Shown one piece after another: positions 3,297 through 23,673 of a DNA stretch of 63,318 nucleotides. The first letter of the stretch is position 1, and every line of letters begins with the position of its first letter. The notes under the pieces are model-generated. The model worked only from the letters and a program-made list of their open reading frames with translations. It was not told the DNA's origin and ran no database searches. A program made the position numbers and the translations under genes. Origin of the DNA: Clostridiales bacterium (GTDB lineage: Bacteria > Bacillota > Clostridia > Oscillospirales > Oscillospiraceae); assembly GCA_014799475.1 (NCBI GenBank), contig JAAVHX010000015.1:121222-184539 (forward strand), read 5' to 3'.

Positions 3297-3755
3297 TTGA
3301 ATCCTGATACCGGAACCACTACCCGCCCCTGCGCGGACAGCTGCGGCACCATGCCCCCCTGCGCGCCCCTGGCGGTACCATATGTGCCCTTTCAGCAGGA
3401 GGGCAGCAAAAAATACGACCAGACCAACACCCTGGCCAACGGCACCATGTTCCCCGGCCTGAACCTCCCCTTCCATTTGAAAGTGGACGCCGCCTCCCTG
3501 CCCGCAAACAGCTCCACCCAGCTTCAAGCGCTTCTGTTCGTCATCACCGAGCTGGGGCTGTATCTGGACACCCACCGAAACGACGCCGAGGCCTTCCAGC
3601 TCTTCCAGCAATACTCCGAAATGGCCCGAAACGCCAAAAAGCAGTATGAGGAGATGCACGGCCCGCTGACCCAGCTCAGCGCCGGACAGGACGCCGCCTA
3701 CCGCTGGCTGGACGATCCCTGGCCCTGGGAATTTGAAAAGAACGAGGGGGAATGA
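3297..3755 (+). CDS. cotJA-cotJB: CotJA-CotJB fusion spore coat protein
   Basis: One 152-residue frame contains both small CotJ proteins. Residues 25-59 are CotJA-like (LAVPYVPFQ, then NGTMFPGLNLPF). Residues 74-145 are CotJB-like (amphipathic TELGLYLDTH helix, YEEMHGPL, terminal WLDDPWPWE). In Bacillus these are separate genes, cotJA and cotJB, transcribed with cotJC in the mother cell. The start is TTG six bases after GGAGGG. cotJC begins three bases after the stop, so translation is coupled. The N-terminus is cysteine-rich (Cys12, 16, 22). There is no frameshift: the linker of about 14 residues is a clean in-frame fusion. Confidence 0.88.
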   Translation: MNPDTGTTTRPCADSCGTMPPCAPLAVPYVPFQQEGSKKYDQTNTLANGTMFPGLNLPFHLKVDAASLPANSSTQLQALLFVITELGLYLDTHRNDAEAFQLFQQYSEMARNAKKQYEEMHGPLTQLSAGQDAAYRWLDDPWPWEFEKNEGE

Positions 3756-3758
3756 CCA

Positions 3759-4181
3759 ATGTTTGTGTATGAGAAAAAGCTGCAATACCCTGTCCGGATC
3801 AAGAACTGCAACCCCAGGCTGGCTTCCGTTATTATCAGTCAGTATGGTGGTCCTGACGGGGAGCTCGGCGCTTCCCTGCGCTACCTGTCCCAGCGGTACG
3901 CCATGCCCTACCCTGAGCTGAAGGGCCTGCTCACCGATATAGGCACCGAGGAACTGGGGCACCTTGAGATGGTGGGCACCCTGGTTCACCAGCTCACCCG
4001 CAATCTGAACGAGGAGCAGATCAAGACCGCCGGCTTTGATACCTATTTCGTGGATCACACCACCGGCGTCTATCCTCAATTCGCCTCCGGCTATCCCTGG
4101 TCCGCCTCCACCATGCAGGTCACCGGCGATATTATCGCCGACCTGACTGAGGACTTGGCGGCAGATGGGGCGATGGCATAA
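3759..4181 (+). CDS. cotJC: cotJC 5' segment, interrupted after codon 135
   Basis: Encodes the first 135 residues of CotJC, a manganese-catalase-family (ferritin-like) spore coat protein, then five foreign codons (DGAMA) and a stop supplied by the inserted element. MFVYEKKLQYP, QYGGPDGELGASLRYLSQRY (Glu35) and the first ExxH, TEELGHLE (Glu65, His68), are all present. The second ExxH helix is missing here and is found at 13482-13673. As it stands the product lacks part of its metal site and its last helices. Joining 4165 to 13484 gives an intact 198-residue protein. The native gene lies three bases after cotJAB. Confidence 0.92.
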   Translation: MFVYEKKLQYPVRIKNCNPRLASVIISQYGGPDGELGASLRYLSQRYAMPYPELKGLLTDIGTEELGHLEMVGTLVHQLTRNLNEEQIKTAGFDTYFVDHTTGVYPQFASGYPWSASTMQVTGDIIADLTEDLAADGAMA

Positions 4182-4188
4182 GAACAAC
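4141..4188 (+). other. attL: left junction of the cotJC element
   Basis: The left half is cotJC coding sequence (codons for LTEDLAA). The right half, 4166-4188, is element sequence. The four bases CAGA at 4162-4165 are also found at the right junction (13480-13483), with GA as the likely crossover dinucleotide. The right half ends in ACAAC, the inverted partner of GTTGT at the start of the element's other end. Placement is seen directly; recombination at this point is inferred. Confidence 0.85.
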
Positions 4189-4210
4189 CCGCCCACTCTT
4201 TTCATCATTT

Positions 4211-4248
4211 AGAAAAATCTCGTCTACTAAAATAGCAGACGAGATTGA
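4211..4248 (-). terminator. Rho-independent terminator of the ABC transporter operon
   Basis: On the minus strand AATCTCGTCT pairs with AGACGAGATT and is followed by TTTTTC. It lies just after the permease stop and only 23 bases inside the element from attL. Confidence 0.85.
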
Positions 4249-4298
4249 TATTGCTTGTTTGCCGCGTAATTTCCGCTGTTTGCGGCAGTCCATCGCGT

Positions 4299-5438
4299 TT
4301 ACTCCAGCATGATACTCTTGATCGATAGTTTCCTTACACTCAAAGAATAGAGATACATTACTAACTCATAGATGATAATAAATGCTATCAATGTAATCAC
4401 AAGGACCTTGAAGTTGAAGGTGTATTCGGGCGCGTTTTCTATGTCAACAAACACAACGGTCATCATTATTTTTAGCAGTCCGTACTGATACACTGTGCCG
4501 ACCGCAAAGCCGATATAGGAAATCGGCCTGTATGCTCCGAGGATCGCGCGGCTGCAGGTGCTGTCCTCATACCCGAACACTCTCATCATGGCAATCGTTT
4601 TGGTGTTTCCCTTCACCACACTGGAGAGGGACAAAAACAATGTCATAAAGGCAAGGATCAACCCAATCATTAAAATCATCCATGAAAAGGTTTTCCTTGA
4701 AAGCTCGTTCATGGATAATGACATTTGCACCATGGCCGAGAAGCAGAACGATGAGAACGCAACAAGGAACGCAAGCACCTTTTTGCTCTTTATCGTGCCG
4801 CTCGACAGGTCTTTCAAAAAAGGGGCGTCATTTGTATCCGCTTTCCGCTTCCTCGTCTTATACTCCCGCTTCTCACGGAGCAAATCCAGCACGGGGCTTT
4901 TCATTTTCCAATCAGCATACAGCACAGATATGACGATAAACGCAATCGTTGGTACACCTATCAAAAGGAACGTCAGCAGCGGATGGAACCGCACGTCAAA
5001 ATTGGGGAAAACCCCCTCCGCGTTTTGTACCTCATAGAACGTAGGCAAATAGCAAAACGCCAATAAAAACCCCAGGGCGCAGCCGACGAGGACAGACAGC
5101 CCGAACACCCAAAAATGTCTCGCGATTTTGACATTGGAATAGCCAAGCGCTTTGAGTATCCCCAGCTCCTTGCCGTGCGTATCTATGTAATTCTTCACGT
5201 AGAACAAAAGCATGACCGCGGACGTCGCCGCCAGGCAGCCGCCCGATACACCTGCCGTAACCTTGCCCATTGATACATATGCGTTATACATCGCAATACC
5301 GGCTTCGGTTGTGATCTCGCTCTCTATCGCGATCAGGTCAGTATTATAGTTCAGGAACAGGGTACAAACGAAAACCGCGCAGCAGGCGATGATCGATATT
5401 CCGAACAGTTTCATCGTATCTTTTAATCCTACGATCAT
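4299..5438 (-). CDS. FtsX-like ABC transporter permease
   Basis: A 379-residue membrane protein with one N-terminal transmembrane helix (about 10-30), a short extracytoplasmic loop, three helices near 60-180 around the coupling segment GKELGILKALGYS, a charged cytoplasmic linker near 190-215, and three or four further helices. The second coupling motif is TIAMMRVFGYE. This is the FtsX/MacB-type permease arrangement, shorter than the usual 8-TM permeases of about 600-800 residues. The ATG at 5438 is five bases after the ATPase stop. It pairs with the ATPase at 5443-6135; the substrate is unknown and peptide or antibiotic export is possible. Confidence 0.85.
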   Translation of the reverse strand: MIVGLKDTMKLFGISIIACCAVFVCTLFLNYNTDLIAIESEITTEAGIAMYNAYVSMGKVTAGVSGGCLAATSAVMLLFYVKNYIDTHGKELGILKALGYSNVKIARHFWVFGLSVLVGCALGFLLAFCYLPTFYEVQNAEGVFPNFDVRFHPLLTFLLIGVPTIAFIVISVLYADWKMKSPVLDLLREKREYKTRKRKADTNDAPFLKDLSSGTIKSKKVLAFLVAFSSFCFSAMVQMSLSMNELSRKTFSWMILMIGLILAFMTLFLSLSSVVKGNTKTIAMMRVFGYEDSTCSRAILGAYRPISYIGFAVGTVYQYGLLKIMMTVVFVDIENAPEYTFNFKVLVITLIAFIIIYELVMYLYSLSVRKLSIKSIMLE

Positions 5439-5442
5439 AGCG

Positions 5443-6135
5443 CTACCACCCAATCTCGTACGCGGTCTTTCGCGCGGCGTTGGTATAGACCTCGGCTATT
5501 CTGCCGCTGTTCATTTTGACGACCATATCTGCCATTTCCGCGATATTTACGTTATGCGTGACCATAACGATCGTAAAGCCGTATTCCTTGTGCAGCTTGC
5601 AAATATAGTCAAGCACCTGTCTGCCCGTCTGTTCATCAAGCGCGCCCGTGGGCTCGTCCAAAAACAGGACGTTCGGCCTTTTCGCGAGGGCGCGGGCGAC
5701 CGATACTCTTTGCTGCTCGCCGCCCGAGAGTTCGCTCGGATGCTTTTTCATTTTGTCTTCCAGTCCAACGGCCTTTATGATCTCCCCGTATCCCTTGTTA
5801 TCGGCGAGGTCAGCGCCCATTCTTACATTTTTTTCAACGGTCATATTGGGGAGCAGATAGTACTGCTGAAAAATAAACGCAATATTGTCTTTTCGGAACT
5901 TTGTAAGGTCCGCGTCGGAAAGCGCCGTAATGTCAACCGCACCATATTGGATGCTGCCGCTGTCGGGGCGTTCAAGTCCCGACAAGCAATTCAAAAACGT
6001 GGATTTGCCCGACCCGGAAGCGCCCAGGATCACGGTAAAATCTCCGTCCGCAATTTGCAAATCGATCCCTCTCAACACCTCGTTTTTGCCGGTGCCGCTG
6101 CCGTAGGACTTTTTTATGCCTGATGCTTTGATCAT
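5443..6135 (-). CDS. ABC transporter ATP-binding protein (LolD/MacB-like)
   Basis: A 230-residue ATPase with Walker [11 protein letters not shown]-loop [10 protein letters not shown], signature [16 protein letters not shown], Walker [13 protein letters not shown] and H-loop MVTHN. The pattern is that of FtsE/LolD/MacB-type exporters. The start ATG overlaps the TetR stop and lies nine bases after GGAGG, so it is translationally coupled to the regulator. Base composition is clearly lower in GC than the surrounding chromosome, supporting acquisition with the element. Confidence 0.93.
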
Positions 6136-6710
6136 TGCGCGATACCTCCCGTTATTTCTTTTAATGTCCCCTTAAATACCTGCGTGATCATCCGGCTGAT
6201 CTCATCAGGAGTAAACACGCACATATTCGTCGCGCAAAGCACCGCTATGCCGTGCGTATAGATCCACAGGTGGCGGTACAGCTGCTCTGCCATGCTCCTC
6301 GACAAGCCGTATCCGTTTTGAACGGATCGCAGAATATCCTCATAGCTGCTGTCAATCATGGGTAATACGTTGGCAACCGAGGGCTTCTGTTCCTGTTCGG
6401 ACATAAAGAGCAGCTGAAACAATTTCGGCTCTTTGATCGCGAACAAAATGTATTGCGTGCCCACACCCTTAAAGGCCAATTCCTCTTCCAGGGCTCTTTT
6501 GATATATTCCGCATATACTGCTTCCGCCGCTTTCTTGAGCTCTGCTTGCAGTTCCTCCATATTTTGAAACAGGCTGAAGATCACCTTCGAGGAGGAGTGG
6601 AGCTTCGCGCCGACTGCCCTTGCCGTAACGGCGCTGAAGCCCTCTTCACGAGTTATATCCAAAGCCGCCCGTATGATCTGCTCCCTTGTGAATTTGAATT
6701 TTGGTGGCAT
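6132..6710 (-). CDS. TetR/AcrR family transcriptional regulator
   Basis: A 192-residue protein. The N-terminal residues FTREQIIRAALDITREEGF and SAVTARAVGAKLHSSSKVIF form a TetR helix-turn-helix, and the remaining roughly 140 residues are a ligand-binding helical domain. The ATG at 6710 is four bases after GGAGGG; an upstream in-frame ATG at 6722 overlaps that site and is less likely. It is the first gene of a three-gene operon with the ABC ATPase and permease. It has a good sigma-A promoter and an inverted repeat (GAAACG/CGTTTC, 6729-6756) between promoter and gene, so autoregulation is likely. Confidence 0.9.
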   Translation of the reverse strand: MPPKFKFTREQIIRAALDITREEGFSAVTARAVGAKLHSSSKVIFSLFQNMEELQAELKKAAEAVYAEYIKRALEEELAFKGVGTQYILFAIKEPKLFQLLFMSEQEQKPSVANVLPMIDSSYEDILRSVQNGYGLSRSMAEQLYRHLWIYTHGIAVLCATNMCVFTPDEISRMITQVFKGTLKEITGGIAQ

Positions 6711-6757
6711 AGTTCCCTCCATTTTAAGAAACGACTGTTGTGCAACTTACGTTTCCT

Positions 6758-6786
6758 ATTATAGGCTATGGTCCGCAACAAGTCAA
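6758..6786 (-). promoter_or_regulatory. Sigma-A promoter of the TetR-ABC operon
   Basis: On the minus strand TTGACT (6781-6786), a 17-base spacer and TATAAT (6758-6763). An inverted repeat GAAACG...CGTTTC at 6729-6756 directly downstream could be the TetR operator. Confidence 0.8.
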
Positions 6787-6818
6787 TAGGCTTCTTGCGG
6801 CAAATTATTTCGATGCGG

Positions 6819-6865
6819 ACGGACCGAGGGCCCGACGGCAGATGGGGCGATGGCGTAAGAACGAC
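6819..6865 (+). repeat. Internal attL-like copy
   Basis: CAGA at 6839-6842 is followed by 23 bases that differ from the attL element arm (4166-4188) at only two positions. The 23 bases before GA match the cotJC arm of attL at sixteen positions, and in the cotJC frame read RTEGPTA against LTEDLAA. The segment 4166-6842 is therefore bounded by two attL-type direct repeats, as after tandem integration or a duplication. Confidence 0.75.
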
Positions 6866-6873
6866 ATGAAAGT

Positions 6874-6900
6874 CAAAAACCGAGCGGTGCCCCCGCTCGG
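6874..6900 (-). terminator. Orphan minus-strand terminator near the internal att copy
   Basis: On the minus strand CCGAGCGG pairs with CCGCTCGG and is followed by GTTTTTG. No minus-strand gene lies immediately upstream of it (the next ORF is the plus-strand 47-codon gene), so it may be a remnant or a block against antisense transcription. Confidence 0.6.
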
Positions 6901-6991
6901 CCCTTGTACTTGCTCAAATCGTTTCATATAGCTTGCAGGTCTAATCAAGTAACCGTTTCGCATAGCATATAAGCTGAAAGGAGAAATTTGC

Positions 6992-7135
6992 ATGAACGAT
7001 AAGCGTTCCCTCCTCTGCCGGAGCTTTTTCAACGGCGGCGAGAAGCCTCCCACCTCCGAGCAATATACCCAGATCTGGATCAACTTAGTGAACCAAATAG
7101 AAAAGTCAAAAGAAACCGTTGCCACTGTTCGGTAA
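6992..7135 (+). CDS. Small ORF (47 aa) upstream of the recombinase
   Basis: ATG at 6992, eight bases after AAAGGAG, encodes a 47-residue charged protein beginning MNDKRSLLCRSFFNGGEKPP and ending ETVATVR. No family is recognised. It has no transmembrane segment; residues 22-45 are probably helical. It lies 67 bases upstream of the serine recombinase and 127 bases after the internal att copy, with a terminator between it and the recombinase. Small proteins adjacent to serine integrases sometimes act as recombination directionality factors; that role here is only a hypothesis. Confidence 0.65.
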   Translation: MNDKRSLLCRSFFNGGEKPPTSEQYTQIWINLVNQIEKSKETVATVR

Positions 7136-7142
7136 TGGCTCA

Positions 7143-7185
7143 GCCGCCCCCACTGCTTAGCTGTGTTGGGGGCGGCACATTTTTA
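7143..7185 (+). terminator. Terminator or attenuator ahead of the recombinase
   Basis: GCCGCCCCCA pairs with TGGGGGCGGC around a 14-base loop, followed by ACATTTTTA. It sits between the 47-codon ORF and the recombinase ribosome site (AGGAG, 7191), so readthrough or another promoter is needed to express the recombinase. Confidence 0.75.
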
Positions 7186-7202
7186 TATGTAGGAGAAAAA
7201 TT

Positions 7203-8756
7203 ATGAGAGTAGCGATATACTGCCGCCTGTCTGAGGAGGATCGGAACAAACAAAACGAGTCCGATGACAGCAACAGCATTCAGAATCAAAAGGCCATGCT
7301 CCTGCAATATTCCATGGCACAAGACTGGGACGTATTTAACATTTACAGCGATGACGACTACACAGGTTCAGATCGCAGCCGCCCTGAATTTCAAAGGCTG
7401 CTCCAAGACGCTGAGCAGCACAAATTTGATATTGTACTTTGCAAGACCCAATCCCGCTTTACCCGAGAATTAGAACTGGTGGAAAAGTACATCCATGGCC
7501 TGTTCCCCCTATGGGGCATCCGATTTATCAGTATTGTAGACAACGCTGACACCGCTAATAAAGGCAACAAAAAGTCCCGGCAGATCAACGGCCTGGTCAA
7601 CGAGTGGTATCTTGAGGATATGTCAGAAAATATTCGCAGTGTCCTCACCAATCGGAGGCAAAACGGCTTCCACATTGGAGCCTTTGCCCTCTACGGCTAC
7701 AAAAAAGACCCTGACCAAAAAGGCCATCTCATCATTGACGAAGAGGCCGCCGCCATTGTGCGGGAGGTATTCACCTTGTTTTCCCAGGGCCACGGAAAAA
7801 CAGCCATCGCCCGTATGCTGAATGACCGGGGCGTACCAAACCCTACGGAATACAAGCGGCTCCACGGTCTGCGCTACCAACAGCCCAAGCAGAAAAACAG
7901 CACGCTGTGGAAATATTTCGCCATTGCTGATATGCTGAAAAATGAAATCTATATTGGGAACATGGTGCAGGGTAAATATGGCAGCATTTCTTACAAGTCC
8001 AAACAGAATAGGCCGCGCCCCCAAGCGGAATGGTATCGTGTGGAGGGTACCCATGAGCCTATCATTGATAGGGACTTGTGGGAACGGGTACAGTCAATCC
8101 TTGCCCAACGGGCCAAGCCTTTCAGCGGCGGCTCCATCGGCCTGTTCGCCGGAAAAGTCCGCTGTGCCAACTGCGGCTACATCATGCGCTCCTCGAAAAA
8201 TCGTGGCCGGCATTATCTCCAATGCTCCAACCGCCATGTGGCAAAGGATGCCTGTATCGGCTCCTTTATCTCGGTAGAAAAGCTGGAACAGATCGTTCTG
8301 AGTGAGCTGAATCGACTCTCTGCGGAGTATCTGAACAAGGACGAGCTTGAGCGAAATATCCAACTTTGCGACAACCTGCAAAACAAAAAGAAGCAGCTCC
8401 AAAAAGCGGTGGAAAGCTATCAGAAAAAGATCAATGCGTACGCCAAAGGGATCCGTGAACTGTATTTAGACAAAGTTAAGGGCATCATCACCGAGCGGGA
8501 CTATCTGGACATGACCAAGGAGTTTTCAGCCGAAAAAGAACGGTTGGAATGCCTGACGGAGAATTGCCATCAGCAGATCGCTGAGTTGGATACTCGCATT
8601 GCGGCAGGAGGTAACCGCAAAGCCATTGTTGAACAGTACGCCAATCTTCAGCATCTGACACGTGAAATGGTGGAAGCCCTGATCGACTATATAGCCGTAG
8701 ACAAGCGCATCCCCGGAACAAACGACGTCCCTGTTGAAATCCATTGGAAATTTTAA
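7203..8756 (+). CDS. Large serine recombinase (site-specific, SpoIVCA-type layout)
   Basis: A 517-residue recombinase. The N-terminal resolvase domain (1-145) has catalytic Ser10 in YCRLSEED and the arginines of QSRFTRE (Arg85, Arg88). A recombinase domain follows (about 155-300), then a zinc ribbon with Cys320, Cys323, Cys340 and Cys350, and a coiled coil near 377-465. Length and order match large serine integrases, including SpoIVCA, which removes skin from sigK in Bacillus subtilis. All catalytic residues are present, so it is probably active. ATG follows AGGAGAAAAATT. Its gene lies 360 bp from the internal attL copy, the usual adjacency of integrase and att site. Confidence 0.95.
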   Translation: MRVAIYCRLSEEDRNKQNESDDSNSIQNQKAMLLQYSMAQDWDVFNIYSDDDYTGSDRSRPEFQRLLQDAEQHKFDIVLCKTQSRFTRELELVEKYIHGLFPLWGIRFISIVDNADTANKGNKKSRQINGLVNEWYLEDMSENIRSVLTNRRQNGFHIGAFALYGYKKDPDQKGHLIIDEEAAAIVREVFTLFSQGHGKTAIARMLNDRGVPNPTEYKRLHGLRYQQPKQKNSTLWKYFAIADMLKNEIYIGNMVQGKYGSISYKSKQNRPRPQAEWYRVEGTHEPIIDRDLWERVQSILAQRAKPFSGGSIGLFAGKVRCANCGYIMRSSKNRGRHYLQCSNRHVAKDACIGSFISVEKLEQIVLSELNRLSAEYLNKDELERNIQLCDNLQNKKKQLQKAVESYQKKINAYAKGIRELYLDKVKGIITERDYLDMTKEFSAEKERLECLTENCHQQIAELDTRIAAGGNRKAIVEQYANLQHLTREMVEALIDYIAVDKRIPGTNDVPVEIHWKF

Positions 8757-8760
8757 AAAG

Positions 8761-8812
8761 CGGCTCCAACCCAAAGCTTTAACACTAAAGTGCGGGTTTG
8801 GAGCCGTTTTTG
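8761..8812 (+). terminator. Terminator after the recombinase
   Basis: CGGCTCCAA pairs with TTGGAGCCG across an imperfect stem and loop, followed by TTTTTG, five bases after the recombinase stop. Confidence 0.85.
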
Positions 8813-9017
8813 TTATGCCAACAGCATCCGTACGCTGCTTTTTATCTCATGAGCATCAAAATCTTCTTGCTCATTCGACATCTGCCCAGCGGCATAAGTC
8901 TCAGCCGGTAAAGTCCCTATCTCGGCAAAAAGAAAATATTTTGACGGTATTATCATTAGAAATATTTGGTCGACATAATATATGTCATGACATATTATTT
9001 GATGGGAGGTTTTACTG

Positions 9018-9464
9018 ATGAGAGACGTTTTGACCGGCGGCAATAACATAGCGGGTGATGTCAACATAGTGGACAATTCAAGGCGAGCAACTAAAATATC
9101 TATATCAATTGGCTCTGTAATATTGGTTGGGATCATTGGGATCGTTGCGTTTTTTATGCTCCGCCCCGCGTCGATCGAGAACAAGATACTTGGCACATGG
9201 CATAATGACGAAATATCTGACTTATATATGGTTTTTTCAGAAAACAATTCCCTCACTGTTAACAGAAGCAATATCAGCATGAAGGGCACCTATACGTTTG
9301 TCGATGACAACAGGCTGCAGTTGAACTTTAATCTTACCCTTTTAAATTATGTAATATATGCTGATGTGTCCGTTCAGGGCAAAACTTTAAGCTTTGATCA
9401 TATAGAGGATCTGAGCCAATACTTTTTTACTTCAAGCAGTACAACGTTTGAAAAAATAAAATAG
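9018..9464 (+). CDS. Small membrane-anchored protein with lipocalin-like C-terminal part
   Basis: A 148-residue protein of low GC. Residues 1-25 are polar (MRDVLTGGNNIAGD), 28-48 form one transmembrane helix (ISIGSVILVGIIGIVAFFML), and 50-148 are a beta-rich region with IENKILGTWHNDEISDLYMV and KGTYTFVDDNRLQLNF. That pattern resembles lipocalin-like domains of Firmicute surface proteins, which are usually exported. The function is unknown. ATG follows GGGAGG. It is flanked by terminators on both sides, so it is monocistronic. The 200 bp before it are AT-rich and show no other gene. Confidence 0.7.
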   Translation: MRDVLTGGNNIAGDVNIVDNSRRATKISISIGSVILVGIIGIVAFFMLRPASIENKILGTWHNDEISDLYMVFSENNSLTVNRSNISMKGTYTFVDDNRLQLNFNLTLLNYVIYADVSVQGKTLSFDHIEDLSQYFFTSSSTTFEKIK

Positions 9465-9489
9465 CGGGAAATCTTAAACTCATCATTTA

Positions 9490-9530
9490 AAAATCGGCGG
9501 CTTTGAGGACTCAAAGCCGCCGATTTCCTT
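9490..9530. terminator. Perfect bidirectional terminator
   Basis: A perfect stem AAATCGGCGGCTTTGAG/CTCAAAGCCGCCGATTT with a two-base loop. It serves the plus-strand gene ending at 9464 and possibly the minus-strand mgtE ending at 9584. Confidence 0.9.
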
Positions 9531-9583
9531 TATTCACAAATCACGTTTTGAGGGATGCCGCGGCCCGCCGCGCCGAACGCCGA

Positions 9584-11020
9584 TTACCCCGCGAAATGAA
9601 GCATCTGGATGAGCAGCAGCCAGCTCATCCCATAGTAGGTGACCACAGCGACCAAATCGTTGATCGTGGTGATCAGCGGGCCGGAAGCCACGGCGGGATC
9701 CACATTGATCCGTTTGAAAAACAGCGGAATGAGCGTGCCCACCGCGCTGGAAATCAGCATCGCCAGCATAAGGGCCACGCCGATACAGCCGGAAACCGCG
9801 TAGGAGAACAAAAGCTCCCTGCCCTTGAGCAGCCAGATATAGAGGCCCACAATGACAAAGGAGATGGTACCCAAAATCAGGCCGTTGCACAGGCCCACCC
9901 GCATCTCTTTGCCCACAAATTGAAGCTTCTGGCCGGCTGTCAGATTTTCGTCCATCAGCACCCGGATGGTGACGGCCAGGGACTGGGTGCCCACATTGCC
10001 CGCCATGTCCAAAATCAGGGACTGGAACGCCATGATCAGCGTGAGCTGGGCCACGACCTCCTCAAAAACACCCACCACAGAGGACACCAGCATCCCCAGC
10101 ACCAGCAGCACCAGCAGCCAGGGCAGACGCTTTTTCATGCTGAGCCTCAGCGGCTCCTTCAGATCCTCCTCCGCGGTCAGACCGGCGAGCCTGGCGTAGT
10201 CCTCGCTCATCTCGTCGTCCACCACTTCGATGATGTTCTGCGCCGTGATGACGCCCAGCAGCTTATTGGAGTTATCCAGCACCGGGATGGAGTTCTCCGA
10301 ATAATCCTTCAGCTTTTCAATGCAGTCGTCGATCAGCTCCGTGGCGTACACATAGGGGAAGGATGTCACGATCAGATCCTCCAGGCTGTCCGTTTTCCTG
10401 GCGGTGATCAAGTCCTTCAGGTCGATGGCCCCGTAAAACGCCTCGCTGTCGTCCACCACAAACAGGGTGGAGATGTTGTCATTCTCCTCCGCCTGATTTA
10501 CCAGCTCCCGCATCGCGCCCTTGATGTCCAGGTTTTCCCGGATCACGATGCAGTTGGTGGTCATTTTGCTGCCGATCTCATCGCTGTCAAAGGAGGCGAT
10601 CAGACGGATCTCCTTCTTGACATCCGGCTCCAACGCGTCGATCAGCTGCTCCCGCCGGAGCTTGTCAAGTTCCCCCAGAATGCCCGCGGCGGTGTCCGTC
10701 TCCAGCCGGCCCACCACATCGGCGGCCTTCTGGAAATCCATCTCCCTCAAGTACGCCCCCGCATCGGACTCATCCAAATGCTCGAATACCTCGGCCATCA
10801 TCTCCGAGGTGCACACGCGGTAGAGCTTTTTGCGCTCCTGGGGGGAAAGCCGCGGCATGACCTCCGCAACGTCGTTCCCATGATAGTCATCCAGCCTGCT
10901 CTGGATGATCTTCGGCGTGTCGTTCCCCCGGATGATGGCGATGATCTCGCTTTCATAGTTGGGCTTCGCGCTGACGTCGTTCTCAGCCGCGGGCTGCCCC
11001 GGCCTGTCTATTCCCGCCAT
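9584..11020 (-). CDS. mgtE: MgtE family magnesium transporter
   Basis: A 478-residue protein with an N-terminal MgtE helical domain (about 25-140), two CBS domains (about 150-270) and five transmembrane helices from about residue 305 (KKRLPWLLVLLVLGML). The channel segment NVGTQSLAVTIR and the terminal INDLVAVVTYYGMSW are family features. MgtE imports Mg2+ through a pore gated by Mg2+ bound to the cytoplasmic domains. The ATG follows GGAGGG. It has its own structured leader and terminator (11096-11290). It lies inside the cotJC element, which is unusual cargo for an integrated element. Confidence 0.95.
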   Translation of the reverse strand: MAGIDRPGQPAAENDVSAKPNYESEIIAIIRGNDTPKIIQSRLDDYHGNDVAEVMPRLSPQERKKLYRVCTSEMMAEVFEHLDESDAGAYLREMDFQKAADVVGRLETDTAAGILGELDKLRREQLIDALEPDVKKEIRLIASFDSDEIGSKMTTNCIVIRENLDIKGAMRELVNQAEENDNISTLFVVDDSEAFYGAIDLKDLITARKTDSLEDLIVTSFPYVYATELIDDCIEKLKDYSENSIPVLDNSNKLLGVITAQNIIEVVDDEMSEDYARLAGLTAEEDLKEPLRLSMKKRLPWLLVLLVLGMLVSSVVGVFEEVVAQLTLIMAFQSLILDMAGNVGTQSLAVTIRVLMDENLTAGQKLQFVGKEMRVGLCNGLILGTISFVIVGLYIWLLKGRELLFSYAVSGCIGVALMLAMLISSAVGTLIPLFFKRINVDPAVASGPLITTINDLVAVVTYYGMSWLLLIQMLHFAG

Positions 11021-11095
11021 AAAACGCCCTCCATTTCGATGATTTGATTGGGGCGGCGCCGATCCGCGATCAGCCCGCCTCAGGCGCGTCGGCAG

Positions 11096-11140
11096 CGGAA
11101 AAAGGGCAGAAAATCCCCCTGTGTCAGAAAACAGGGGGTT
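11096..11140 (-). terminator. Attenuator-type terminator upstream of mgtE
   Basis: On the minus strand CCCCCTGT pairs with ACAGGGGG, followed by ATTTTCTGCCCTTTTT, about 75 bases before the mgtE start. A terminator between the leader and the gene implies transcription attenuation. Confidence 0.75.
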
Positions 11141-11290
11141 GGAAATTTCGGTTATCTCATTTGAAATTCAGGCAGCCGGAAGCGGCAGCGGCTTCCGCGC
11201 TGTTCTGATAACCGAGCAGTCGTCTTCGCCCTGTCTCCGCGCTACTATCGCCGCTTGCCACTTTCCTCACCTCACTCAAACAGAATTTTC
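11141..11290 (-). promoter_or_regulatory. Structured mgtE leader, candidate Mg2+-responsive riboswitch
   Basis: The minus-strand leader holds an 8-bp outer stem CGGTTATC/GATAACCG (11149-11156 with 11207-11214) enclosing a GGAAGC/GCTTCC hairpin, and further upstream a GAGGTGAGG segment (about 11271-11279) reminiscent of the M-box start. The match to the M-box consensus is weak, so the class is not assigned. Its position before an attenuator and mgtE is the main argument. Confidence 0.4.
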
Positions 11291-11420
11291 TACATATTTA
11301 AATATACTACGCTTTCCGCCAAAAGTCAATCTTCCTTCCGGCAGGGATTTTGATCCTAATGGGCAGGCCGCGCCGCTAGGCTGCCGCGAGAAGCAGCTTG
11401 TCCGATCGCTTCTTTGGGTT

Positions 11421-12791
11421 TCAGATGCCCGGCCCGCCGTCCGGCGCCCCCCTCAAGGGGCGGTACACGGTGAGATACATGGTGGTAAAGCAGGCCAGCC
11501 CGCCGACGAGCTGAGACACCGCCTCCGCCGCGAACACGCCGGTGGTGCCCATCCAAATGGGCAGCAGCACCGTCAGCGGCGCGTTGATGATGGCCTTGCG
11601 CAGCAGGGAGAAAAAGATCGCCTGCTTCGACCGGCCCAGTCCCACAAAGATCGCCTGCCCCGCAAACTGGAGGGACATAAACAGGAACATTCCAAAATAG
11701 ATGCGCAGGGCGGGTATGCCCGCCGCAATGATGGCGGGATCGTCCTTGAAAATGCGGATGAGCGGCTTGGGAAAGGCCATGGCGACGGCCCAGAACAGGG
11801 CGGAGTAGGCCACCGTCACCCCCACACTGAATTGGATGGACTGCCGCACCCGGCTGTACAGCTTCGCGCCGTAATTGTACCCCGCCACCGGCTGGGAGCC
11901 GTTGGTCAGCCCCTGCACCGGCATGATGAACACCTCCCGCAGGGAGTTGATGATGGTCATCACCCCCACATACAGGTCGCCGCCGTAGGCCTGCAGGGTC
12001 GCGTTGCACGCCACCTGCACCAGGCTGTTGGTCATGTTCACAAAGAAGCCGGACAGGCCCAGGGAGACGATCCGCCCCGTGCGCACCCTGTCCAGCCGCA
12101 GGTTTTTCCAGCGCAGGCGCAGGATGGCCCGCTTTCCCGTGAGGAACAGCAGCACCCATGCCGCCGACAGCGCCTGGGAGAACACCGTGGCCAGGGCCGC
12201 CCCCCGCACCCCCATGTCAAACACGAAGATAAGTACCGGATCCAGGGCAATGTTCACCGCCGCCCCCAGCAGCACCGTCATCATCCCCACCCGGCCGAAG
12301 CCCTGGGCGTTGATGAAGGGGTTCATGCCCAGGCTTATCATGACGAACAGGGTGCCGCACAGGTAGATGGTCATGTACCCGTCGGCATAGGGGAACGTGT
12401 CCGGGCTGGCCCCGAACAGGTAGAGGATGGGCCCTTTCAGCGCCAGGAAAAACGCCGTGGCTGACACACCCAAAATCAGCAGCAGCGAAAAGGCGCTGCC
12501 CATCACCCGCTCCGCTTCCTCATCGTCCCCCTTTCCCCGGCTGATGGAGCACAGCGGCGCGCCGCCGGTTCCGCACAGGTTGGCGAACCCCATCAGGATG
12601 GAGATAATGGGCATGGTCACCCCCAGGCCGGTGAGGGCCAGGCTGTCGCTCTCCGGCAGGTGGCCCAGGTAGATGCGGTCCACCACGCTGTACAGCACGT
12701 TTACCAGCTGGGCCGCCATCATGGGGACGGCAAGGCTCATAATATTGCGGGGAATGCTCCCTTTTGAAAAATCGTTCTGCCTCTCTGCCAA
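11421..12791 (-). CDS. MATE family efflux transporter
   Basis: A 456-residue, twelve-helix multidrug and toxin extrusion protein. It begins MAERQNDFSKGSIPRNIMSL and has the two pseudo-repeats of MATE carriers: an N-lobe around PMMAAQLVNVLYSVVDRIYLG and a C-lobe around GSQPVAGYNYGAKLYSRVR. It is of the NorM/DinF-like type driven by Na+ or H+. The start is TTG eight bases after GGGAGG. A minus-strand extended -10 lies at 12826-12836. The 400-bp gap to mgtE and the divergent promoters toward 13.2 kb make it a single-gene unit. The substrate is unknown. Confidence 0.93.
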   Translation of the reverse strand: MAERQNDFSKGSIPRNIMSLAVPMMAAQLVNVLYSVVDRIYLGHLPESDSLALTGLGVTMPIISILMGFANLCGTGGAPLCSISRGKGDDEEAERVMGSAFSLLLILGVSATAFFLALKGPILYLFGASPDTFPYADGYMTIYLCGTLFVMISLGMNPFINAQGFGRVGMMTVLLGAAVNIALDPVLIFVFDMGVRGAALATVFSQALSAAWVLLFLTGKRAILRLRWKNLRLDRVRTGRIVSLGLSGFFVNMTNSLVQVACNATLQAYGGDLYVGVMTIINSLREVFIMPVQGLTNGSQPVAGYNYGAKLYSRVRQSIQFSVGVTVAYSALFWAVAMAFPKPLIRIFKDDPAIIAAGIPALRIYFGMFLFMSLQFAGQAIFVGLGRSKQAIFFSLLRKAIINAPLTVLLPIWMGTTGVFAAEAVSQLVGGLACFTTMYLTVYRPLRGAPDGGPGI

Positions 12792-12825
12792 GGAAAGGGC
12801 CTCCCTTTTCGCGGTATTTCCCGAT

Positions 12826-12836
12826 ATTATATCATA
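12826..12836 (-). promoter_or_regulatory. Extended -10 promoter for the MATE gene
   Basis: TATGATATAAT on the minus strand (TG-A-TATAAT). The identical 11-mer occurs again at 12896-12906 (minus) and 12993-13003 (plus), so this intergenic region holds three copies. Confidence 0.6.
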
Positions 12837-12973
12837 GGCGCAAAGCGCCGTTGTGGCAAATCAGTACTAATCATGTAAAATAGCCGCCTGCGGTTATTAT
12901 ATCATATTGCGGCAGAGAGGAAAGACTAAAAGTATACAAGGTTCTGTGAAACCGCGGGCCCTGAATTGTTTGG

Positions 12974-13003
12974 TTGCCTTTTTCCGCCGCGCTATGATAT
13001 AAT
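12974..13003 (+). promoter_or_regulatory. Plus-strand promoter reading into the cloverleaf structures
   Basis: TTGCCT (12974-12979), 18-base spacer, TATAAT (12998-13003) with an extended TG. Transcription would begin near 13010, at the 5' edge of cloverleaf A, so the structures are probably transcribed. Confidence 0.6.
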
Positions 13004-13082
13004 ATTGACAAACGCCACACAAAGTGTGGCGGCCCGCGTTGCGGGCGGCATTTTGTTTACAAAATGCCTGTTGTCAATGTTA
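13000..13082. repeat. Cloverleaf palindrome A
   Basis: A 12-bp closing stem (13000-13011 with 13071-13082, one T-G wobble) encloses three hairpins: 13014-13030 (7 bp, loop AAA), 13032-13046 (6 bp, loop GTT) and 13047-13068 (9 bp, loop TTTA). Only about five bases outside the loops are unpaired. Confidence 0.85.
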
Positions 13083-13086
13083 CAGG

Positions 13087-13158
13087 ATAGCCAAAACCGG
13101 CTTTGCCGGTTTTACGCCGCTTTTGCGGCGTGCAAGCCGATATACGGCTTGCGGCTAT
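13087..13158. repeat. Cloverleaf palindrome B
   Basis: A 6-bp closing stem (ATAGCC 13087-13092 with GGCTAT 13153-13158) encloses three abutting hairpins: 13093-13113 (9 bp, loop TTT), 13114-13131 (7 bp, loop TTTT) and 13132-13152 (8 bp, loop ATATA). Every base outside the loops is paired. Confidence 0.85.
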
Positions 13159-13166
13159 GCTATAAT
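13158..13166 (+). promoter_or_regulatory. Extended -10 for the 84-codon ORF
   Basis: TGCTATAAT at 13158-13166, overlapping the 3' arm of cloverleaf B. It repeats the GCTATG-N-TATAAT pattern found before cloverleaf A. It lies 34 bases upstream of the ATG at 13200. Confidence 0.5.
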
Positions 13167-13199
13167 GGCCGTGCATTGACGCAAGGGGGGTATGAGACT

Positions 13200-13454
13200 A
13201 TGTCATTTACGCAGGACTTCCGATCAGCCGACGATGGGGAAGATCCCGGCGAGGCCCCTTCCCCCTCCCCTTTGGGACAGCCCTACGAGGACGCCCTGAA
13301 CGAAATCGACCGCGCCCTCCACCAAATGCTCCTGCTGGCCGAGCTGTCCGCCGGCGACGGCGCCGTGGACAGGGAGATCCTTCAAAAAGTCCTGGAGCGC
13401 CTGCAAAACAAAATTGACCGCATCGCGGATCGGCTGGATTCCACCGAGCGCTGA
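13200..13454 (+). CDS. Hypothetical protein, 84 aa, next to attR
   Basis: Begins MSFTQDFRSADDGEDPGEAP, acidic and proline-rich to about residue 28, then a predicted helical region from YEDALNEIDRALHQMLLLAEL to LERLQNKIDRIADRLDSTER that could form a coiled coil. No family is recognised. A GGGGG stretch lies ten bases before ATG 13200; longer upstream frames lack a ribosome site and would run through the palindromes. The stop is five bases before the attR arm and in the same frame as the orphan cotJC segment. An att-proximal small ORF could serve recombination control, but nothing shows this. Confidence 0.6.
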   Translation: MSFTQDFRSADDGEDPGEAPSPSPLGQPYEDALNEIDRALHQMLLLAELSAGDGAVDREILQKVLERLQNKIDRIADRLDSTER

Positions 13455-13458
13455 ATAT

Positions 13459-13506
13459 GTTGTCTTTGCAAGGCCGCACCAGAGCAGAAGGCCCGCCTTA
13501 CCTACG
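13459..13506 (+). other. attR: right junction of the cotJC element
   Basis: The element arm 13459-13481 begins GTTGT and ends CACCA. The crossover GA is at 13482-13483 within CAGA (13480-13483). cotJC coding sequence (EQKARLT) follows. It is in direct orientation with attL, as needed for excision rather than inversion. Confidence 0.85.
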
Positions 13507-13673
13507 ACAACATCCTCCGCCTCTCCGACGACCCGGATGTCAACAACGTCATCCGCTTCCTGCGTGAGCGGGAAATCGTCCATTTCCAACGCTTTGGCGA
13601 GGCGATTGCCCTTGCCAAGGAGCGCATGGATCAGAAAAATGTGTACTTCACCAACCCCGCGTTTGACAAATGA
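13482..13673 (+). CDS. cotJC: cotJC 3' segment (orphan, no start codon)
   Basis: Encodes the last 63 residues of CotJC, from EQKARLTYDNILRL through FLREREIVHFQRFGE to the C-terminus NPAFDK. It contains the second ExxH motif (REREIVH, residues 166-169 of the joined protein). Between the preceding in-frame TGA (13452-13454) and this segment there is no ATG, GTG or TTG, so it cannot be translated alone. It is collinear with 3759-4163 and has not decayed: no frameshift or stop in 63 codons. A strong terminator follows, as expected at the end of the cotJ operon. Confidence 0.92.
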   Translation, partial: EQKARLTYDNILRLSDDPDVNNVIRFLREREIVHFQRFGEAIALAKERMDQKNVYFTNPAFDK

Positions 13674-23309: not shown

Positions 23310-23664
23310 GCAAGCAAGCTGGACAGCCGCGCGCGCAGGCCGAAAGGCCGTTGCGTGAGGAAAGTCCGGGCTCCACAGGGCAGGGATAACGGGTAACACC
23401 CGCCGGGGGCGACCCCAGGAAAAGTGCAACAGAAATAGACCGCTGGCGGGCTTTGCCCGCCAGCAAGGGTGGAAAGGCGAGGTAAGAGCTCACCCAATGG
23501 CGTGTCAAAGCGCCCATTGCTGTAAACTCTATCCGGAGCAACGCCGTGGGAACACAACAGGCCGGCCCGGCCGTGTTCAGGAGGCGGCTGGAGCGCGTTG
23601 GCAACAGCGCGCCTAGATAGATGGCTGTCTTAAATGACAGAACCCGGCTTACAGGCTTACTTGC
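23310..23664 (+). ncRNA. rnpB: RNase P RNA, class A
   Basis: About 355 nt with all universal blocks in order: GAGGAAAGTCCGGGCTCC, ACAGAAATA, GGTGGAAAGGCGAGGTAAGA, GAGCTCACC and the 3' GATAGATGGCTGTC plus ACAGAACCCGGCTTA. The ends pair (GCAAG-AAGC near 23310 with GCTTACTTGC near 23664) as P1. This ribozyme removes tRNA 5' leaders. The block order and P-helix hairpins (for example GGCGGGCTTTGCCCGCC near 23446) fit the A-type RNA rather than the Bacillus B type. Confidence 0.97.
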
Positions 23665-23673
23665 ACCAAAAGC

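Follow-up and report, generated by a model that had tools for sequence, protein, structure and literature searches.

Does the insert that splits the spore coat gene cotJC of a Clostridiales bacterium behave as a skin-like element, removed precisely in the sporulating mother cell so that the gene is rebuilt? The question is posed by a 63,318-nucleotide stretch of contig JAAVHX010000015.1 (hereafter the window), for which a first-pass annotation had proposed an element of this kind. We put at roughly 0.8 the probability that the 9.3-kb insert is a large serine recombinase (LSR) element lodged at a dedicated attachment site (attB) in cotJC, and that excision in the mother cell rebuilds the gene. 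Sporulation-specific excision in the mother cell has strong, though indirect, support: both halves of the gene are under selection, the LSR group is tied to one codon of a coat gene, a sigmaE/SpoIIID-like block precedes many of the LSR operons, and sigK is also split.

A Coat Gene Divided Within Codon 136

3297–3755, forward strand: open reading frame (ORF) immediately 5' of cotJC; no NCBIfam match
3759–4165, forward strand: cotJC 5' part (codons 1–135 plus GA of codon 136), from ORF analysis; Pfam Mn_catalase positions 1–149
4145–4188, forward strand: attL, comprising half of attB (cotJC), the core CAGA (4162–4165), and the P' arm TGGGGCGATGGCATAAGAACAAC (4166–4188)
4166–13483, no strand assigned: intervening element of 9,318 bp, from junction analysis and the uninterrupted gene in relatives
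13459–13500, forward strand: attR, comprising the P arm GTTGTCTTTGCAAGGCCGCAC (13459–13479), the core CAGA (13480–13483), and half of attB
13482–13673, forward strand: cotJC 3' part (codons 136–198 and stop, without a start codon); Pfam Mn_catalase positions 150–199

Codons 1–135 of cotJC (3759–4163) and codons 136–198 with the stop codon (13482–13673) match consecutive ranges of the Pfam profile, and the ORF that precedes them is one that we take to be cotJB-like, judged by its position and C-terminal motif. The left frame continues past the junction, with GAT as codon 136, until it meets a stop at 4179–4181, and the right part begins with GAG and lacks an in-frame start codon. The core CAGA is present at both ends of the 9,318 bp that would be excised, the crossover falls within the Glu136 codon (GA), and the 4165/13484 join yields an Mn-catalase/CotJC frame of 198 residues that contains DLAAEQKAR. 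Here the first-pass annotation, which had described the split after 135 codons, the shared CAGA, the start-less right part, and the restored frame, was correct to the base, and its account of the insertion, of the element's boundary, and of the rejoined frame has full support. The insert ends form an imperfect palindromic attP (circle junction) centred on CAGA, which is typical of LSRs. Junctions in the window's group read GCNGA-TGGGGCGATGGC...AACAAC on the left and GTTGTCTTTGCAAGG...CCAGAG on the right, and when the left ends of loci L079, L081, and L086 are paired with right ends taken from other elements (L077 and L082), the arms are perfect inverted repeats of 20 bp.

Uninterrupted copies of cotJC, the lack of which in close relatives would by the first-pass annotation's own account have spoken against it, do exist, and their upstream neighbour is conserved. 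In locus L003 (93% identical protein), the left part of the window aligns over 885 bp, of which about 480 bp lie upstream of cotJC, and the 3' half abuts the left part with a 3-bp overlap at the core; on these short loci, the collinearity seen is that of the upstream side. In another intact relative (L002) aligned to 1jku, the Mn catalase of L. plantarum, E35, E65, H68, E136, and H169 (the His of IVHFQRF) occupy ligand positions. Glu136, which aligns with a ligand glutamate, is a predicted metal ligand, and the joined product matches the CotJC/Mn catalase family with its metal ligands. No cotJC copy beyond the two pieces was found in the source assembly (46 contigs, 86.6% complete, so that a further copy is possible).

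The clean end of the left ORF just past the junction would suit a two-chain protein whose halves are made separately; alternatively, the split could be an artefact of assembly. We give these explanations a negligible probability, since the right half has no in-frame start of its own and codon-136 breaks recur in many assemblies.

A Recombinase Family Tied to Codon 136

7203–8756, forward strand: LSR of 517 amino acids (aa), with Resolvase, Recombinase, and zinc-ribbon domains

The full-length LSR that the first-pass annotation had assigned to the insert is borne out by these three domains and by R8, S10, R85, and R88, presumably the LSR catalytic residues, which are invariant in the 10 sequences compared (window included). 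Named genomes were scanned with ten LSRs from elements at codon 136 (break site S3, below), and the best 80 of 564 relatives (at least 74% identity) were kept. An S3-broken cotJC half lies beside the LSR in 75 of these best 80 of 564 loci, with L098 counted by an alignment that runs on past S3. The remaining five are L076, which resembles a tandem array; L134 and L135, which reach the contig end soon after the LSR; and L105 and L118, which lie elsewhere. Carriers include Anaerotignum lactatifermentans, Blautia, Parablautia intestinalis, Roseburia faecis, Clostridium fessum, Flintibacter muris, Oscillibacter valericigenes, and Diplocloster modestus. S3-broken pieces are present in 12 of 12 genomes searched whole (ten named to genus or species and two Oscillospiraceae records), and the halves are collinear on one contig in 8 of the 12; Diplocloster has an intact cotJC copy besides the pieces. 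Both the number of assemblies involved and this collinearity argue against an assembly artefact.

Of the 103 LSRs in the tree that score above 300 bits, 87 share their locus with an S3 edge, and the other 16 include contig edges, duplicates, L098 (for the reason given above), and LSRs on viral contigs. Viral contigs contain 16 LSR relatives; six close, full-length ones (L152–L157) also adjoin cotJC pieces, so that these reveal no free phage form. Within the class, a close LSR was found in 9 of 391 genomes, its own included (E ≤ 1e-170; top candidates per genome scored), and the idea that such an LSR is common everywhere was accordingly rejected.

In the 17 loci that include both ends of an S3 element, its length is between 3.2 and 16.7 kb; whole-genome searches extend this to about 29 kb (Blautia sp. 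An249). The smallest (L125, 1304–4461; about 3.2 kb) contains the LSR, an ORF of the 47-aa type described below, and one opposite-strand 254-aa ORF. L174 (G119:C22:20000-38232) and L076 show two consecutive S3-type LSRs, the first followed by a P-CAGA-P' junction and the second by a cotJC 3' half; the arrangement looks like a tandem array whose left end lies off the contig. The S3 element of Roseburia faecis M72 (L178, G126:C19; about 24 kb) encodes TcpC, an AAA_10 ATPase, Rep_trans, and FtsK-like proteins, and looks like a conjugative-type element with cotJC as its target.

An ordinary integrative element could use a conserved coat gene as its attB in this way, with cotJC dispensable or knocked out, and excision rare and not tied to sporulation. 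The conjugative appearance of the R. faecis element is in keeping with this, as are near-identical LSRs in hosts of different families (L079/L081/L086; L127/L130), from which it follows that the elements move. Furthermore, Clostridioides difficile cotCB/cotD mutants are reported to have lower catalase activity and no significant coat defect (PMC11222575). We consider such an element unlikely all the same, in view of the state of the cotJC genes, their selection, and the regulatory context described in the following sections.

Four Break Sites in cotJC

The cotJC tally covered 93 genomes (the window's own included) with pieces of at least 45% identity, paralogues below 45% being excluded. Among the matches listed, the gene is intact in 48 of the 93 and broken or partial in 45; at least two pieces are present in 34 (G026 is ambiguous), and the remaining non-intact cases are single pieces, possibly contig edges. 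Breaks recur at S1 (codons ~30–31), S2 (codon 62), S3 (codon 136), and S4 (codons 173–175); contig edges can mimic S4 as well as the single-piece cases. The single element in cotJC envisaged by the first-pass annotation is present in the window, but this description is too narrow for the relatives, in which cotJC is a recurrent target with four sites. The gene lies in four pieces on two contigs in genome G015 (S1, S2, and S3) and in three pieces on one contig in Blautia sp. An249. Genes in three or four pieces still align to a whole cotJC, which speaks against an ordinary element in a dispensable gene.

At S3, every junction checked has the GA of codon 136 and keeps the frame (41 left and 69 right junctions; 7 duplicate loci dropped). 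A stop inside the aligned stretch occurs in the left pieces L055, L056, and L058 (in the piece or in its extension past S2) and in the right piece L115, where it falls near the end of the match. Each of the four sites lies within about six codons of a ligand (E35, E65/H68, E136, and H169, respectively), and the LSRs found close to S1 and S2 are remotely related to those at S3 (34–110 bits vs. 527–1183). We considered whether these sites simply mark the best-conserved parts of the gene and rejected the idea as not significant, because 1846 of 20000 random placements reached their mean identity (conservation percentiles: S1, 61; S2, 84th; S3, 91st; S4, 41). We lean, with some reserve, toward the broader view that cotJC of gut Clostridia is developmentally assembled: unrelated recombinase elements, from 3-kb inserts with hardly anything besides a recombinase to conjugative ones, would occupy four integrase sites near metal-ligand codons, and up to four DNA 'exons' would be rejoined in every terminal mother cell.

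Selection on the Separated Halves

Ratios of nonsynonymous to synonymous substitution rates (dN/dS) were taken from pairs with dS of 0.1–1.5. The start-less 3' halves (54 loci) have a median dN/dS of 0.199 (214 pairs, none above 0.5), compared with 0.114 for the same codons in 28 intact genes (143 pairs). The 5' half gives 0.174 in split genes (23 pairs) vs. 0.161 in intact ones (163 pairs). These ratios point to purifying selection on both cotJC halves, including the 3' halves that lack a start.

The window and genomes G005, G018, and G038 share MgtE/MATE cargo with a synonymous divergence (pS) of 0.12–0.17, and their cotJC 3' halves have pS of 0.10–0.25 and a nonsynonymous divergence (pN) of 0–0.014. 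Because the 3' half has been constrained while the shared cargo diverged comparably, the gene was probably split, and kept, since the common ancestor of the four. Such persistently low dN/dS in start-less halves is difficult to reconcile with an ordinary element in a knocked-out gene. Among the same four, the pS of the LSR is 0.44–0.66 (window 7203–8756 vs. L052, L068, and L069), several times that of the cargo; because this divergence so far exceeds that of the neighbouring MgtE/MATE genes, the recombinase block seems to have been exchanged.

The Control Region Upstream of the Recombinase

6939–6974, forward strand: promoter-like block, with CATA at 6961–6964 and a degenerate SpoIIID-like box; its position matches the block of other loci
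6992–7135, forward strand: 47-aa ORF, 5' of the LSR; candidate recombination directionality factor (RDF) or accessory factor, from its conservation
7143–7176, forward strand: strong hairpin and then a U-rich stretch, terminator- or attenuator-like, between the 47-aa ORF and the LSR (folding z −3.07)

The DNA upstream of the LSR was examined in 58 loci, made up of 56 named ones (24 of the 80 being omitted) together with L153 and the window; the conserved 47-aa ORF is present in 56 of the 58. A profile search over all 80 named loci found the ORF in 76, and of the four without it, three begin at a DNA edge. The 47-aa protein, a candidate RDF or accessory factor, is a better helper candidate than the 84-aa ORF beside attR, because the latter was found in few loci (9 ORFs in 72 loci, window included). 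As a general helper, the 84-aa ORF was rejected: it lies within 700 bp downstream of the LSR in only 6 of 58 loci, a limit too tight for arrangements such as that of the window, in which the ORF is more distant.

The 47-aa ORF is often preceded by a block of the form ATA...GGACWWGC-N(7)-CATA-nnnT. GGACAAGC is similar to the Bacillus subtilis SpoIIID site, and ATA/CATA to sigmaE elements, so that the block looks like a sigmaE/SpoIIID-like mother-cell promoter. Of 56 upstream regions, 33 contain its loose form; this count is not a probability, since the pattern was written after viewing the sequences and a good number of the regions are related to one another. The spacing between the SpoIIID-like box and CATA, 8 nt in the pattern counted, is identical each time, although five spacings were allowed; Markov shuffles gave a mean of 0.4 and a maximum of 2 matches, and the reverse strand gave 0. 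The strict form occurs in 15 regions (Markov mean 0.06). A weight matrix built from 19 of the 33 boxes was used to score 22 loci, of which 12 have scores reached by 0 of 300 shuffles (L074 had served in training, and L072 is a duplicate of G005). In the window, a weak matrix match falls at the same place, with a score reached by 0 of 300 shuffles. A mother-cell-type block upstream of many LSR operons is not what an element indifferent to sporulation would lead one to expect.

Other Split Sporulation Genes

In the window's own genome, sigK lies in two pieces about 9.4 kb apart (contig positions 78665–79147 and 88574–88747; L173, G000:C24:76500-91500). Both pieces score best with SigK models, and the one better full-length match is sigE. 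Three genes with Resolvase and Recombinase domains, one of them short (254 aa), lie between the pieces, an arrangement indicating that sigK is split by a skin-type element. The presence of such an element in the same organism makes mother-cell excision plausible in general, and counts against an ordinary element in cotJC. The genome also encodes spoIIID, as do 28 of 30 genomes with an S3 LSR (14 above the curated cut-off); the gene is in pieces in two.

These two are Blautia sp. An249 (L176, G121:C2; ~10.3 kb) and Clostridium fessum (L177, G128:C22; ~7.3 kb), in both of which spoIIID is broken near STVH/KDV with an LSR in the insert. Additionally, sigK is in two pieces in C. fessum (G128:C1:659043-679486) and Pseudoflavonifractor sp. 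524-17 (G122:C69:83242-102362), with the break at profile position 109–118, unlike that in the window's genome.

An Internal Att-Like Copy

6822–6865, forward strand: second, internal att-like copy, with a B-like arm, CAGA (6839–6842), and a P' arm, from sequence comparison

This copy, which the first-pass annotation had overlooked, is 84% identical to 4145–4188 and has a degenerate cotJC-like arm; because it lies inside the insert, the latter is regarded as composite. The sequence that follows it resembles the attL-proximal DNA of G038 (L069), and for this reason the internal copy is likely to be the older left end of the element. The TetR/ABC genes to its left (module A) are also present in G005, beside the same internal copy, and look like a later addition that is common to G005. 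Recombination of attL (4165) with attR would remove the whole insert, and recombination between the internal copy and attR would retain module A.

LSR elements can excise spontaneously, and the past rearrangement implied by the internal copy could be read in the same sense, namely as random excision in a fraction of growing cells (phase variation, giving a mixed population) with no developmental switch. This we hold to be very improbable: the sigmaE/SpoIIID-like block points to the mother cell, and we know of no use for cotJC in growing cells, given its role as a coat protein.

Proposed Excision in the Mother Cell

The preferred reading, mother-cell excision from a dedicated site, would operate as follows. 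SigmaE with SpoIIID would switch on the 47-aa ORF and the LSR in the sporulating mother cell, and the LSR, with the 47-aa protein as its directionality factor, would recombine attL with attR, thereby rebuilding cotJC. The excised circle would be lost with the doomed mother cell, and the forespore (and spore) would retain the element, so that residing in cotJC would carry almost no cost, much as residing in sigK does for skin. Judged by its sequence, the insert has the attributes of a skin-type element: a split sporulation gene, exact restoration at a short repeat, a full-length LSR, and uninterrupted relatives. The term 'skin-like' used in the first-pass annotation therefore fits the mechanism, but not a phage origin: a Pfam scan of eight insert proteins (the 47-aa ORF not among them) found no phage structural or replication genes.

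Several observations weigh against mother-cell excision. The close LSRs of L105 and L118 are not at cotJC on the DNA examined, and eight more distant LSRs on viral contigs (L158–L162 and L164–L166) are not beside it. In split genes, the 3' half shows weaker constraint than the same codons of intact genes (0.199 vs. 0.114), and this somewhat raised dN/dS would also suit an ordinary element. Besides the post hoc origin of the block pattern, the window is absent from the 33 pattern matches and its matrix score is weak (6.4, compared with a training range of 25–53); by matrix, no credible block was found in L073 (from the close relative G038), L147, or L140. LSRs at S1 and S2 gave one loose match in 21 loci (three with almost no upstream DNA), and a role for the same block in driving them was rejected. 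Finally, the internal att copy could permit a partial excision that leaves cotJC broken.

Contents of the Insert

4299–5453, reverse strand: cargo module A, FtsX-type permease (Pfam)
5443–6135, reverse strand: cargo module A, ABC transporter ATPase (Pfam)
6132–6722, reverse strand: cargo module A, TetR-family regulator (Pfam)
9018–9464, forward strand: cargo, 148-aa protein with weak DUF5640/lipocalin-like matches below cut-off
9584–11020, reverse strand: cargo, MgtE-type divalent cation transporter (Pfam)
11421–12791, reverse strand: cargo, MATE-family transporter (Pfam)
13200–13454, forward strand: 84-aa ORF next to attR, kept in a subset of elements; no Pfam family, one sub-cut-off NCBIfam match

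GC content is 0.47–0.49 in the left two blocks of the insert, 0.59 in the MgtE–MATE part, and 0.63–0.65 in the flanks. Conjugation genes were likewise sought by Pfam among the eight insert proteins and none was found, and PADLOC assigned none of three window proteins to a defence family. Outside the insert, the window encodes an ordinary RNase P RNA (bacterial class A) at 23311–23667.

Comparison With Known Systems

If the proposed excision takes place, sigK and a few Bacillus genes are not the only ones from which DNA is removed by programme in the mother cell; the process would be recurrent in gut spore-formers, and one gene could be affected several times by such elements. The cotJC system offers a direct test of why mobile elements settle in mother-cell genes, where a broken gene would cost little if its repair takes place in a cell already bound to die. 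Splitting would also account for cotJC, and in some species sigK and spoIIID, appearing broken or absent in annotation. Furthermore, the LSR family, with its predictable target codon and candidate 47-aa helper, represents a new group of site-specific recombinases.

The R. faecis S3 element is similar to Tn916-type integrative conjugative elements in having conjugation-type and rolling-circle replication genes; in contrast, the window element has no conjugation gene among its Pfam matches. A literature search, the coverage of which excluded most subscription papers and bioRxiv preprints, found no published element inside cotJC. One candidate, phi027 of C. difficile, was rejected as a published cotJC element: it is reported to lie beside a CotJC homologue and not inside it (PMC11222575, PMC12122855).

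Sporulation genes that are split by a mobile element and rebuilt, or possibly rebuilt, include spsM (SPbeta) and sigK (skin) of Bacillus subtilis, spoVFB (vfbin), and spoVR (vrin) (PMC4191935), as well as yabG (yin) of Clostridium botulinum (PMC10747680). Unlike the window element, these are prophages or prophage-like, and the available parts of the two accounts neither name cotJC nor describe several sites per gene. Like the cotJC element, the gin element in gerE of Bacillus cereus ATCC10987 is non-phage and splits a sporulation gene, and it combines LSRs with a small helper protein, for which the 47-aa protein is the candidate here; it spans 28.6 kb and has three LSRs (PMC5595907), compared with S3 elements of 3.2 kb (L125) to about 29 kb.

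The skin element in C. difficile sigK (LSR CD1231, RDF CD1234; PMC5025042) is likewise an LSR element inside a mother-cell gene, and in both cases exact attL × attR recombination restores, or would restore, the frame. The C. difficile RDF (72 aa) has a demonstrated sigmaE/SpoIIID promoter, and the 47-aa helper candidate of the cotJC element may resemble it, with a promoter proposed from sequence likeness; in contrast, the C. difficile LSR has a sigmaA promoter (PMC5025042). SpoIIID is known to control spoIVCA (PMC517825) as well as the C. difficile RDF (PMC5025042). The cotJC element further differs from C. difficile skin in targeting a coat gene and not sigK, in having the 47-aa ORF directly 5' of the LSR, and in belonging to an LSR family bound to codon 136. 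On this largely supported reading, the element belongs among the skin-type gene-intervening elements, with the unexpected trait that one gene is struck at four sites.

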